NCBI GenBank assembly: GCA_015711725.1
Contig: JACVIX010000020.1
Span: forward strand, 1 to 35,268
Length of the DNA: 35,268 bases
Source: Candidatus Geothermincola primus
Lineage (GTDB): Bacteria > Actinomycetota > Geothermincolia > Geothermincolales > Geothermincolaceae
Direction of reading: 5' to 3'
Part shown: positions 4,808-35,268 of the stretch, one piece after another
Position numbering within the stretch: position 1 is the first letter of the stretch
How the letters are laid out: every line of letters starts with the position of its first letter
Translations under genes and position numbers: made by a program
Notes under the pieces: generated by a model
Database searches by the model: none
Seen by the model: the letters and a program-made list of their open reading frames with translations, nothing else
Told to the model about the DNA's origin: nothing

Positions 4808-4959
4808 GATAGTGCCCTCAACGCAAATCTAAAGAGGCGGCGCGGCAGCTCATTCGGATTTACGGGCGGAGCAAATTCGGCATTCATGGTTTTTTACGGC
4901 AAGCGCCACCCATATTAATATATAGACATCTAGCGGTCGAGGCGTTCCCGAGGTTCCGA

Positions 4960-15842: not shown

Positions 15843-16720
15843 ATGAACTTCTATCAATTATCACGAATTATCGTGTCCTGGGTTAAAGTATACATTTACT
15901 TATTGGGTTGGCGGATTGCAATTAGGCCCCCATCTCGAGCCCAGCGCGTGAAAGTCGATGATATAGAGATTTATTTTCGCGTTTTTGGCCAGGGTGAACC
16001 GGTTTTACTCTTGCACGGGGGGGTTATGTCCTGGGAATCCTGGGCCGTACAGATACCCAGGCTCTACCGGCGCTATCAGGTCATCGCCATGGACTTACGG
16101 GGACATGGTCGGACAACCTTGGGCGACGCCCCTTTGGATTATCGCCGTCTGGCCAAAGATGCCGTCTCCCTCTTGGATAATCTTGGTCGAGGCCCCGCGC
16201 ACGTCGTGGGTTGGAGCGATGGGGGTTGCGCAGGTCTGGCTATAGCTTTGGAGAGACCCGATATGGTGCGCAGCCTCATATTAATAGGCACCCCTCACGA
16301 CACCGAAGACTATTCCGAAGAGGCATGGCGGAAGATAGAGAAATAGCTTCACCCACAATCCATCGCCCAGATAGGATTAAGGTTCTTGCGCCGCCTAATT
16401 AACCCCGAACTGGAAAGGGGTAAAATTTTTTTAGAACGTATGGCCAAGATGTGGGGGGAACTCCCCAACTTTACCCCGGAGGATTTGGCCTTGCTGGAAA
16501 TTCCCACACTGGTATTGGCATGCGATCGGGACGATTTCCTCTCCTCTCGTAACGATCCCATGAGAGTTTTCAGGAAAACAGTTGAGGAGCTGCCCCAAGC
16601 CTGGTTTATCCAGTCTCAGGAGGAAGACATTACTTACATATGCAATATCCTCATAAAGTAAATCAAGTCATGTTGGACTTTTTAAGGATGTTATCCTTAG
16701 CAGGTGATCGTAAGGGATAA
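15843..16720 (+). pseudogene. Broken alpha/beta hydrolase (amber stop plus frameshift)
   Basis: The first frame gives an alpha/beta-hydrolase N-terminal half with the oxyanion stretch LLLHGG, DLRGHG and a full nucleophile elbow GWSDGG. It then meets TAG at 16344-16346. The same frame continues open and homologous (RLINPELERGKIFLERM, then the acid region LVLACDRDDF) and ends without the catalytic His. That His appears only in another frame: from about 16607 the frame reads VSGGRHYLHMQYPHK and ends NQVMLDFL...DRKG at 16720. Loss of one C near 16610 would explain the shift. With both lesions repaired the protein would be about 292 residues. Two lesions in one gene argue for a pseudogene rather than programmed recoding. 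The ribosome binding site is weak. Confidence 0.85.
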
Positions 16721-28312: not shown

Positions 28313-28723
28313 TCATTTCTTATGACTCCGGGAGGCCAGCTCCGAGTGGATAAACTCCACGATGGCGCTGGTGGGGGTGCCCGGACCGAATACTCCATCT
28401 ATCCCTATCTCTTTCAGAGGCTGGTGGTCCTCCTGAGGGAATACCCCGCCGATCAGGAGGAGAAAGTCATCCCTACATCCCTCCTTCTCCAAAGCCTCCA
28501 CCACCGCCCGGGCCCATTCTAGGTGGGCGCCGGAGTGCACTGAAAATCCGATCACGTCCACATCCTCCTGCAGGGCGGTCTCCACCATACCCTCCAGGTT
28601 CTTGAATCCGGCGAAAATGGTCTCCATCCCCGCCTCGGACAGCGCCTTGGATACCGTGATGATTCCCCTCCAGTGGCCGTCCAGCCCCGGTTTGAAGAGA
28701 AGCACCCTGATCTTGCGGTCCAT
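28313..28723 (-). CDS. B12-binding small subunit of acyl-CoA mutase
   Basis: 136 residues, a stand-alone cobalamin-binding domain as in two-gene isobutyryl-CoA or archaeal-type mutases. The base-off/His-on motif is DGHWRG (about residues 15-20, after KPGL), providing the lower-axial His. The other loops are VDVIGFSVHSGAH and GGVFPQEDHQPLKEIGIDGV, with FGPGT closing the nucleotide-tail pocket. In the usual SxL motif the Leu is replaced by His (SVHS). I start at 28723, seven bases after AGGGAGG. The large subunit ends 15 bases upstream, so the two are translated as a unit. Confidence 0.93.
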   Translation of the reverse strand: MDRKIRVLLFKPGLDGHWRGIITVSKALSEAGMETIFAGFKNLEGMVETALQEDVDVIGFSVHSGAHLEWARAVVEALEKEGCRDDFLLLIGGVFPQEDHQPLKEIGIDGVFGPGTPTSAIVEFIHSELASRSHKK

Positions 28724-28738
28724 GCTCACACCTCCCTT

Positions 28739-30412
28739 TTAAGCCACTATGGGCAGGTCCCAGAGGCCCCAGATCTCCCGGTATACGTCGGTGATCTCCC
28801 CCAGGGTAGCTCCCGCTGCGGTGAGCTGGCTCACCACCGGAAGCACGTTCTGGTTCTGCTCGCAGACCCGGCGCAACTCATCAAGAAGGGAGCGCACCCG
28901 GGCGTTGTCCCTCTCCCGGCGCAGCTTCTCTAGTCGTTCAAGCTCTATCTCCGCCGCCCGGGGGTTGATGCGGAAGGCGGGCGGGGGCTCCTCTTCCTCC
29001 TTGACGTAACAGTTCACCCCCACCACCTTCTCCGCCCCGGACTCCTGGTCGCGGCGGCGCTTATGAAAAGCCTCGGCCATCTGGCCGAAGAGCCATCCGC
29101 TGGAGAGCGCCTCGGCTACTCCTCCCGCCTCCTCTATCTTTAGGAAGTAGTCCCAGATGCGTTCCTCCAGCTCTTTGGTGAGCGCCTCCACGTAGTAGGA
29201 ACCCGCCAGGGGGTCGATCACGTTGGCCACCCCGGTCTCCTCCTGGAGTATCTCCTGGGTTCTCACCGCCAGGGTCACCGCCTCCTCGGAGGGCAGACAG
29301 ATGGCCTCGTCATAGGAGTTGGTGTGCAGGCTCTGGCATCCCCCTAGCACCGCCTCCAGGGCCTGGTAGGCGGTGCGGATGATGTTGAGCATGGGCTGCT
29401 GGGCGGTGAGCGAGGAGCCTGCGGTCTGCACATGGAAGCGGAACTGATAGGCTCGGGGGTTCTCCGGGCGATAGCGCTCCCGCAGCAGGCGGTACCAGAG
29501 CTTGCGGGCGGCCCGGTACTTGGCGATCTCCTCGAAGAAATCCCGATGGGCGGAGAGGTGGAAGGCCAAGCGATGGACGAAGTCGTCTATCTTCCAGCCC
29601 CGGGAGAGCAGCTCATCGATGTGGGCCACCGCGTTGGCCAGGCCCATGGCGATCTCCTGCACCGCGTCTATCCCCCCCTCCCGGTAGTTGTAGGTGGTGA
29701 AGTTCACCGGGTTCCAGCGGGGAGCCTCCTTCATGGGGATGCAGTACTCGATGAGGTCGCATGCCAGCTTGAGCATGTGCTGAGGATCAACCGCTCCCCA
29801 AGGTATTATGGCACAGCAAGTAGTGAGCAAGTCTCCCTGAGTGGTCCCTATAAGAGTTTCCTTGGCTATGCCTCTCTTGCGGGCCACGTTGAAATATGTG
29901 GTGGTGATGGCTGGTCCCGCCATGGGAGTGACCACCAATGCCACGCTTATGCGGTCGATGGGTAGCCCTTCCACCAACGCCTCCATCCCTCGGATGGAGT
30001 AGATGGGAACCCCCTCCTTACCCACCTCTGCTTCGATGCCTGGAAACATGTCGGGATCCAGGGCAAGAGTTGTTAGATTGTCCGCAGCGGCGGAAAACCC
30101 CGTCTCCCCCTCCTCATAGAGGAGTCTCCACCTCTGATTGGTCTCCTCAGGGGTGCCGAAGCCGGAGAACATACGGATGGTCCAGAATTTCCCTCGATAC
30201 ATATTGGGGTAAATACCTCGAGTGTAGGGAGGGAATCCAGGAAAGCCAATATCTTCCAAGTAATCCAGATCCTTTACGTCTAATGGCGTATATAGCTGAT
30301 TTATAGGAATTCCAGAGTCGGTTCGAAAGATCCCATCTCGCTCAGGCCATTGCTGGCTCTCCCCTTTCCATCTAGAGTATTCCTCCTCCAGTTTCTGATA
30401 GTTTTCTCTCAT
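28739..30412 (-). CDS. Divergent acyl-CoA mutase large subunit (methylmalonyl-CoA mutase family)
   Basis: 557 residues, a TIM-barrel radical mutase subunit without its own B12 domain. Family signatures are clear: TRGIYPNMYRGKFWTIR (64-80), GTTQGD with Gln192, AARKLW, QTAGSSLTAQQP, SLHTNSYDEA, and IDPLAGSYYVE. Positions that set chemistry differ from methylmalonyl-CoA mutase (P. shermanii numbering). Tyr89 is Phe82 (TIRMFSGF) and Arg207 falls on Ile202-Ile203 (TTCCAIIP). His244 is Asn242 (TTYNYREGG, aligned without gaps from RWN). Isobutyryl- and 2-hydroxyisobutyryl-CoA mutases have Gln at the 207 position and keep the His, so this is none of the classic types. The ribosome binding site is GAGGGGGG. 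It follows tetR by 80 bases. Substrate unknown. Confidence 0.92.
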   Translation of the reverse strand: MRENYQKLEEEYSRWKGESQQWPERDGIFRTDSGIPINQLYTPLDVKDLDYLEDIGFPGFPPYTRGIYPNMYRGKFWTIRMFSGFGTPEETNQRWRLLYEEGETGFSAAADNLTTLALDPDMFPGIEAEVGKEGVPIYSIRGMEALVEGLPIDRISVALVVTPMAGPAITTTYFNVARKRGIAKETLIGTTQGDLLTTCCAIIPWGAVDPQHMLKLACDLIEYCIPMKEAPRWNPVNFTTYNYREGGIDAVQEIAMGLANAVAHIDELLSRGWKIDDFVHRLAFHLSAHRDFFEEIAKYRAARKLWYRLLRERYRPENPRAYQFRFHVQTAGSSLTAQQPMLNIIRTAYQALEAVLGGCQSLHTNSYDEAICLPSEEAVTLAVRTQEILQEETGVANVIDPLAGSYYVEALTKELEERIWDYFLKIEEAGGVAEALSSGWLFGQMAEAFHKRRRDQESGAEKVVGVNCYVKEEEEPPPAFRINPRAAEIELERLEKLRRERDNARVRSLLDELRRVCEQNQNVLPVVSQLTAAGATLGEITDVYREIWGLWDLPIVA

Positions 30413-33316: not shown

Positions 33317-33461
33317 TTCTCCTTCTGTTTTATAACGCATCTTCCATAATTAAATCAATTTAAGCACGCTTGATTGCGATAGGAAAGATCTCGCGACTTA
33401 TAAAAATATGATAATCTTATAATAAATATAATTTATGATTATATGTCATAGGGAGGGTAAC

Positions 33462-34496
33462 ATGGCGTTGAAGCTCACGCAGCTTTCTCGCGTCTCTGGG
33501 TGAGCTGCCAAGATGGGTCCGGAGGACCTGGCGAAAATTTTAAAAAACTTGCCTAGCCAGCAACGCGAGGAGATATTGGTAGGGCTGGAAACACCGGATG
33601 ACGCCGCGGTCTATCAACTGGACGAGCACACCGCCTTGGTGCATACGGTGGATTTCTTCACCCCTATTGTGGATGATCCATATACCTTTGGCCAGATAGC
33701 GGCTACTAATGCCTTGAGCGATATATATGCTATGGGAGGCAGGCCCCTCACCGCCATGAATATTCTATGTTATCCCTGCAAGCTAGGCACGGAAGTTGCT
33801 GTGGAGATACTTAAGGGCGGAAATGACAAGGTAAAAGAGGCGGGAGCCATGGTGGTGGGAGGGCATACAGTGGAAGATGAGGAACCAAAATTCGGGCTGG
33901 CTGTAACCGGTATCGTTGACCCTGGTCTTATCCTCATCGCAGGTGGCGCTCGTCCTGGGGATGTCCTTCTTTTAACCAAGCCTTTGGGAACTGGGGTTAT
34001 GGCTACCGCTCTGAAGGCCGAGTTCATTGGGGAAGATGAAATGGCGGAAACAATCAGGGGGATGACTACCCTTAACCGCGTAGCTTCCGAGTTGGCCTTG
34101 GAGTTGAAAGCATCCGCTTGCACTGACGTGACTGGCTTTGGACTATTGGGCCATTTACTCAATATGGTGAGCCATCACCTCACCTGTATTTTGAGAGTCA
34201 GTGATATCCCGTTTTACCCGGGCGTGCGGGAAATGGCAAGCCAGGGCATGCTTCCAGCGGGAGCTCGTAACAATCGACTTTATTATGAAAAAAACGTAAT
34301 CTATCCGGATGATCTGGACGCTCTCACTATCGATCTCTTATGGGATCCCCAGACCTCTGGTGGTCTGCTCATCGCGCTTCCGCCGGAAAGCGAGGAAAGA
34401 GCTTTAAAGTTCTTGAAAGCAAAAAATCCTTGTGGAGGTTATCTAATAGGTTACTTCACGGAAAGGCGCTCCGCTCCTATAGAGATTTCTATTTAG
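33462..34496 (+). CDS. selD: Selenide, water dikinase containing selenocysteine (in-frame UGA)
   Basis: 344 residues if the TGA at 33501-33503 is read as selenocysteine. The start ATG at 33462 follows GGGAGGG. The N-terminus reads MALKLTQLSRVSG-U-AAKMGPEDL, matching the SelD active-site motif in which Cys or Sec precedes AAK. An annotation from ATG 33513 would drop the catalytic residue. The enzyme makes selenophosphate from selenide and ATP. Downstream motifs fit: HTVDFFTPIVDDPYTFGQIA, ATNALSDIYAMGG, GGHTVEDEEP, DVTGFGLLGH and DPQTSGGLL. A bacterial SECIS-like hairpin follows the UGA. The next recognisable gene is selA. Confidence 0.95.
33507..33532 (+). promoter_or_regulatory. bSECIS element of selD
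   Basis: Directly after the UGA, GCCA (33507-33510) pairs with TGGC (33529-33532), and GGTCC (33516-33520) pairs with GGACC (33524-33528) around a GGA loop. The apical loop begins 17 bases after the UGA and starts with G. Both points fit the known constraints for SelB-bound bacterial SECIS hairpins. Confidence 0.75.
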
Positions 34497-35155
34497 GGAG
34501 AGGTTTCTCGATAATAAATTTAACTTTTAGATCGTTGATTGAACTAGGGAATTATTATCGCGATATCTTGATAAGGCTATTTTGGGAAGATTATCAATTT
34601 GTGAAATTTATCCATATTTTCCTCTGGAATATTTTGCGGTTTGAAGTAAGAGGGCTAAGTTCCGGGTTCATATGAGGCTTCCTGTTGGGCGACATACCTG
34701 ATGATATAATTATTGATTGGCGCCTTGTTTTGAATAAATACGGCTTTAGTTGAGCTGGCGAAAATTTATAAAGAGACAAAAAGCCACCAAGGGTAAGAAG
34801 AAGATGGCAAGAAAACGTGGGTCGAGTTTTATGGGCGTTGCAGAAAGTTAGAAAAGGGATGTATTACTGTAACGAGCTTAATAACTTTGACCGCACGGAA
34901 CAGATGTTATGGCGAAGAAATTTTTGATGTATAGAGGTGAATCTTGAGTAAAAACTCTTATAAAATACTTTATAACATAATAATTCAACGTATTTTTTCA
35001 AAATGTAAAATATATAGGGAGCGGATTTATCGGAAAGCGATTTTGTAAAAAGGGGGAATAGCGACCTTGTTATATATTTTGGTTTTCTGAAAGAAGAGAA
35101 CGAGATCATATCATCGCCACTGGATGTTGGGTAGATTTGAAGGGATGGATTGGCA
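34497..35155. other. Gap between selD and selA
   Basis: The 659 bases contain no intact gene and no recognisable tRNA-Sec. A plus-strand stretch around 34790-34950 reads GKKTWVEFYGRCRKLEKGC in one frame but has no start or ribosome binding site. GAGA-GGTT-TCTC after selD is only a tiny hairpin. Confidence 0.4.
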
Positions 35156-35268
35156 GTGGGGAAAGAAGATTATTTGAGACGTCTTTCATCTGTAAACGAG
35201 ATACTACATGCCTTTAACAGATTCCATGAGTCCGTGGATGCCATTCCTAGAGAAATCGTCGTGGAGGC
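35156..35268 (+). CDS. selA: L-seryl-tRNA(Sec) selenium transferase, N-terminal part (runs off the window)
   Basis: The first 37 codons read VGKEDYLRRLSSVNEILH and then VDAIPREIVVEA, which matches the SelA N-terminal helix region (LRRLPSVDE...; ...REVVVEA). SelA is the PLP enzyme that converts seryl-tRNA(Sec) to selenocysteyl-tRNA using selenophosphate from SelD. I start at GTG 35156, about 10 bases after AAGGGA; an in-frame TTG at 35150 is the alternative. A stop lies three codons upstream of the TTG. The catalytic Lys and the rest lie outside the window. Confidence 0.85.
   Translation, partial: MGKEDYLRRLSSVNEILHAFNRFHESVDAIPREIVVE

Follow-up and report, generated by a model that had tools for sequence, protein, structure and literature searches.

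Does the in-frame TGA near the end of the window, i.e. the whole analysed stretch of 35,268 nucleotides, encode selenocysteine (Sec), and where does the gene that contains it begin? The frame runs from ATG 33462 through TGA 33501-33503 to the stop codon TAG at 34494-34496, and the product, with the TGA read as U, begins with MALKLTQLSRVSGUAAKMGPEDL... Across this one TGA, the frame matched positions 1-310 of the SelD profile TIGR00476, for which the SelD cut-off is 125 bits. The gene is almost certainly selD, with the UGA at codon 14 decoded as selenocysteine; gene identity, UGA position, conservation, the codon constraint in the adjoining hairpin and the sel machinery were all read from sequence.

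33462..34496, plus strand: selD, Sec-containing selenophosphate synthetase (selenide, water dikinase), 344 amino acids; TIGR00476, 379.3 bits
33450..33457, plus strand: Shine-Dalgarno-like AGGGAGGG, seen in the sequence upstream of ATG 33462
33501..33503, plus strand: in-frame UGA, predicted Sec14, aligned in the solved SelD 3u0o with the first of the two GCGCK cysteines; alignment and class-wide conservation

The mechanical ORF caller placed the start of selD at 33513, 51 bases downstream of ATG 33462, as the sequence-only reading had foreseen for a standard call, and the catalytic Cys/Sec position is lost from that frame. Because the in-frame UGA lies near the start of selD, a standard gene finder would lose the 5' part of the gene. 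The TIGR00476 score was 356.4 bits from 33513 and 379.3 bits from 33462, a gain of 23 bits with the 5' extension, indicating that the codons 5' of the TGA are homologous to SelD beyond chance. A further in-frame ATG lies upstream, at 33435; the start at 33462 is favored on the basis of AGGGAGGG at 33450-33457 and the N-termini of the relatives. The coordinates proposed earlier for the true start and the UGA were all borne out by the sequence.

In alignments to solved SelD chains, the SGUAAK segment of the product falls on GCGCK and GCAAK, and the catalytic Cys/Sec followed by the conserved Lys is present near the SelD N-terminus. Catalysis by E. coli SelD requires the Cys of this motif as well as the Lys close to it. 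Among 31 genomes of the same taxonomic class, the source genome included, 27 contained SelD, and the column of the UGA was TGA in 25 of these 27 genes and TGC (Cys) in the other two (L056 and L067), in which the frame is open throughout. The residues 5' of the TGA (LT......G) were conserved in all 27. In addition, a query holding only the part of SelD after the TGA found nine named, more distant relatives, among them Tissierellia, Synergistaceae, SAR324, and Alicyclobacillus, and all nine carried TGA at the place of Sec14. The conservation in 25 of the 27 class genes indicates that the UGA in selD is beyond chance.

The genomes with the Cys-type SelD, G004 (L067) and G005 (L056), keep a tRNA-Sec, suggesting that SelD has changed from Sec to Cys there while Sec decoding was retained. 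Such a Sec-to-Cys conversion of SelD has been reported (PMC1794560), and L056 and L067 are likewise examples. Another genome of the class (G013, 94% complete) has a UGA-containing SelD (L060) adjoining selA and no tRNA-Sec above the cut-off. For G001, a close relative of the same family (82% complete), neither SelD nor tRNA-Sec was detected at threshold.

Contig C16 carries the single tRNA-Sec of the source genome (anticodon UCA, 76.2 bits), together with SelB (405.7 bits) and SelA (TIGR00474, 600.1 bits). The reverse complement of C16 begins with exactly the 127 bases that end the window (35142-35268), suggesting the gene order selD - gap - selA - selB - selC.

34497..35149, plus strand: A+T-rich gap between selD and selA, about 650 bp, 36% GC
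35150..35268, plus strand: 5' end of selA, candidate starts TTG 35150 and GTG 35156, placed by the 127-bp overlap and continuing on C16

This join rests on the 127-bp overlap and not on reads, and the synteny of the relatives, in which selA adjoins selD and tRNA-Sec lies mostly a few kilobases off on the same contig, agrees with it. A search for selB and tRNA-Sec had been proposed as a check, and both were present in the same cluster as selD. The sequence-only reading had also taken the UGA frame itself as showing that the organism decodes Sec. The decoding stands, on the sel genes, the conserved TGA, and the homologues with Cys, whereas the single frame does not serve as proof. In relatives, yedF sits between selD and selA. 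It has left this usual place in the source genome; no remnant of yedF was found in the gap (34497-35149) by tblastn or profile, and the intact yedF of the genome is located on contig C153.

Directly 3' of the UGA, a hairpin was found at the place claimed earlier for a SECIS-like element, with 17 bases between the UGA and its GGA loop.

33506..33533, plus strand: candidate bacterial SECIS-like hairpin, from folding and from the GGT CCG codons shared by all 25 Sec genes
33521-33523, plus strand: GGA apical loop of the hairpin
33516-33520 / 33524-33528, plus strand: inner stem
33506-33510 / 33529-33533, plus strand: outer stem, extending the inner stem

The stability of the hairpin alone is near chance and is weak evidence: compared with shuffled sequences, the folding energy gave z = 0.08 for 56 nt and z = -1.61 for the trimmed 34-nt hairpin. 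With Rfam, no SECIS family reached the gathering threshold, and the matches below it were at chance level. Codon use was examined in 64 near-invariant columns, for amino acids with at least four codons, in the 25 Sec genes. Only two of the 64 columns exhibited zero codon entropy, namely the Gly and the Pro of the hairpin 5' strand, which were GGT in 25/25 and CCG in 25/25 genes. The 17 other invariant Gly columns exhibited codon entropies of 1.32-1.91 bits, and GGT accounts on average for 11.5% of the Gly codons in the Sec-type selD genes. Since the 25 genomes are related, a naive codon probability is not a P value; the comparison of columns within the same genes controls in part for kinship. 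In the Cys-type genes, the hairpin Gly codon is GGC in L056, and GGT is kept in L067. The invariant GGT CCG in these alignments points to selection acting on the RNA, which fits a SECIS element.

It is highly improbable that translation starts at 33513 to give a 327-residue SelD without Sec, with the upstream frame acting as a leader. The ORF from 33513 is the longest uninterrupted one and still scores as SelD, but such a start would drop the catalytic Cys/Sec and the next conserved Lys, and no Shine-Dalgarno sequence precedes it. The conserved SelD residues that the codons 5' of the TGA encode in all 27 class genes, as well as the TGC relatives L056 and L067, which read through the TGA column, also argue against it. 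A related possibility, that the 33513 start is used in addition under selenium shortage to produce a truncated regulatory SelD, so that the UGA would sense selenium on behalf of the entire sel cluster, is considered very unlikely.

We assign a negligible likelihood to the TGA having arisen by sequencing error, or by decay of a TGC/TGT codon in a gene that is no longer active: although the assembly is a draft in 225 contigs, the identical TGA occurs in 25 class assemblies and nine distant species, the remaining selD frame is intact, and the genome contains a complete Sec machinery. Reading of the UGA as another amino acid, e.g. as Cys through a suppressor tRNA or an altered genetic code, is also extremely unlikely. 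The genome does hold a tRNA-Cys that resembles tRNA-Sec, but its anticodon is GCA, and not UCA, and the tRNA that carries UCA is the tRNA-Sec adjoining selA and selB; such a reading would, moreover, leave the codon constraint in the hairpin 3' of the UGA without a reason.

For selenocysteine decoding of codon 14, established knowledge of bacterial systems suggests that the hairpin directly 3' of the UGA would bind SelB carrying Sec-tRNA-Sec, that Sec would be inserted at this codon of selD, and that Sec14 would serve as the catalytic nucleophile, replacing the Cys of the E. coli-type SelD. SelD would then make selenophosphate, which SelA would use to form Sec-tRNA-Sec, so that SelD may be both a client and a supplier of the Sec pathway within the selD-selA-selB-selC cluster.

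The expectation that other genes of the organism are truncated by TGA was confirmed: at least four further UGA-containing redox genes were found in the genome. These are two formate-dehydrogenase-like proteins with U at the usual place (HCARLU-HSST and HQARIU-HSST, on C15 and C16), an HdrA/FlpD protein with CHWU on contig C7, and a peroxiredoxin-like protein with TWUP on contig C28. As the selenoproteins were sought by family only, this list is a minimum. The NiFe-hydrogenase-type matches in the genome contained no TGA. Within the window, the ORF at 15843-16661 was rejected as a UGA gene, because its internal stop is a TAG; it is an alpha/beta-hydrolase-like gene with the in-frame TAG at 16344-16346, and is perhaps a pseudogene. 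Elsewhere in the window, at 28313-30412 on the minus strand, the translations read by eye resemble a methylmalonyl-CoA-mutase-like large subunit and a separate B12-binding subunit, arranged in tandem.

FdhA and SelD are reported to be the most widespread bacterial selenoproteins, and FrhD and peroxiredoxin are also among the 25 listed selenoprotein families (PMC1794560). The Sec-containing SelD arrangement is long known and common in bacteria, and the present case is ordinary in kind; as in the known examples, the UGA lies near the N-terminus, a hairpin follows, and the sel genes are in the genome. With Sec-containing SelD ranking among the two bacterial selenoproteins of widest distribution (PMC1794560), the novelty is low. 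The Cys-containing SelD 3u0o belongs to the same family over its whole length (230.9 bits) and has Cys at the catalytic position, whereas the product described here is predicted to have Sec. The E. coli-type GCGCK has a second Cys, in place of which Ala is found here (GUAAK), as in most relatives. Like bacterial SECIS elements, the selD hairpin lies directly after the UGA, with a G-rich apical loop about 17-20 nt away, but it differs from them in its 3-nt GGA loop on a GGUCC/GGACC stem and in the lack of an Rfam match. The hairpin of the C15 formate dehydrogenase in the source genome has a GGUCU loop.

The tRNA-Cys that resembles tRNA-Sec is encoded on contig C153, together with yedF, yedE (encoding a putative selenium transporter; TIGR04112, 458.6 bits), and genes resembling those for TusA and a cysteine desulfurase.

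C153 of the source genome (G000), 4830-4923, minus strand: tRNA-Cys(GCA) of tRNA-Sec shape (L091), between yedF and yedE

This tRNA scored 51.7 bits with the tRNA-Sec model, above the cut-off, and has a discriminator U (U73) and a long variable arm. Eight further genomes of the order carry similar tRNAs, and no yedE or yedF was found within the examined flanks of those genes. The selC* tRNA-Cys species, which have an 8/4 structure with an A51a bulge, are described from Firmicutes, Thermodesulfobacteria, Nitrospirae, and Proteobacteria (PMC7609411, review). The C153-type tRNAs are similar to them, but lack the reported 8/4 bulge: in our own reading of the cloverleaf, they have an 8-bp acceptor stem, a 5-bp T-stem, and no A51a bulge. 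The tRNA at L131 has A-U in place of G-C as the fifth pair of its T-stem.

Overall, the start of selD is corrected, whereas the knowledge of SelD itself is unchanged, and the lead offered by the tRNA-Sec-like tRNA-Cys may outweigh the selD finding in worth. Selenocysteine is in wide use in the lineage, with UGA in 25 of the 27 SelD genes of the class, so several redox enzymes of these genomes will be cut short by automatic annotation.
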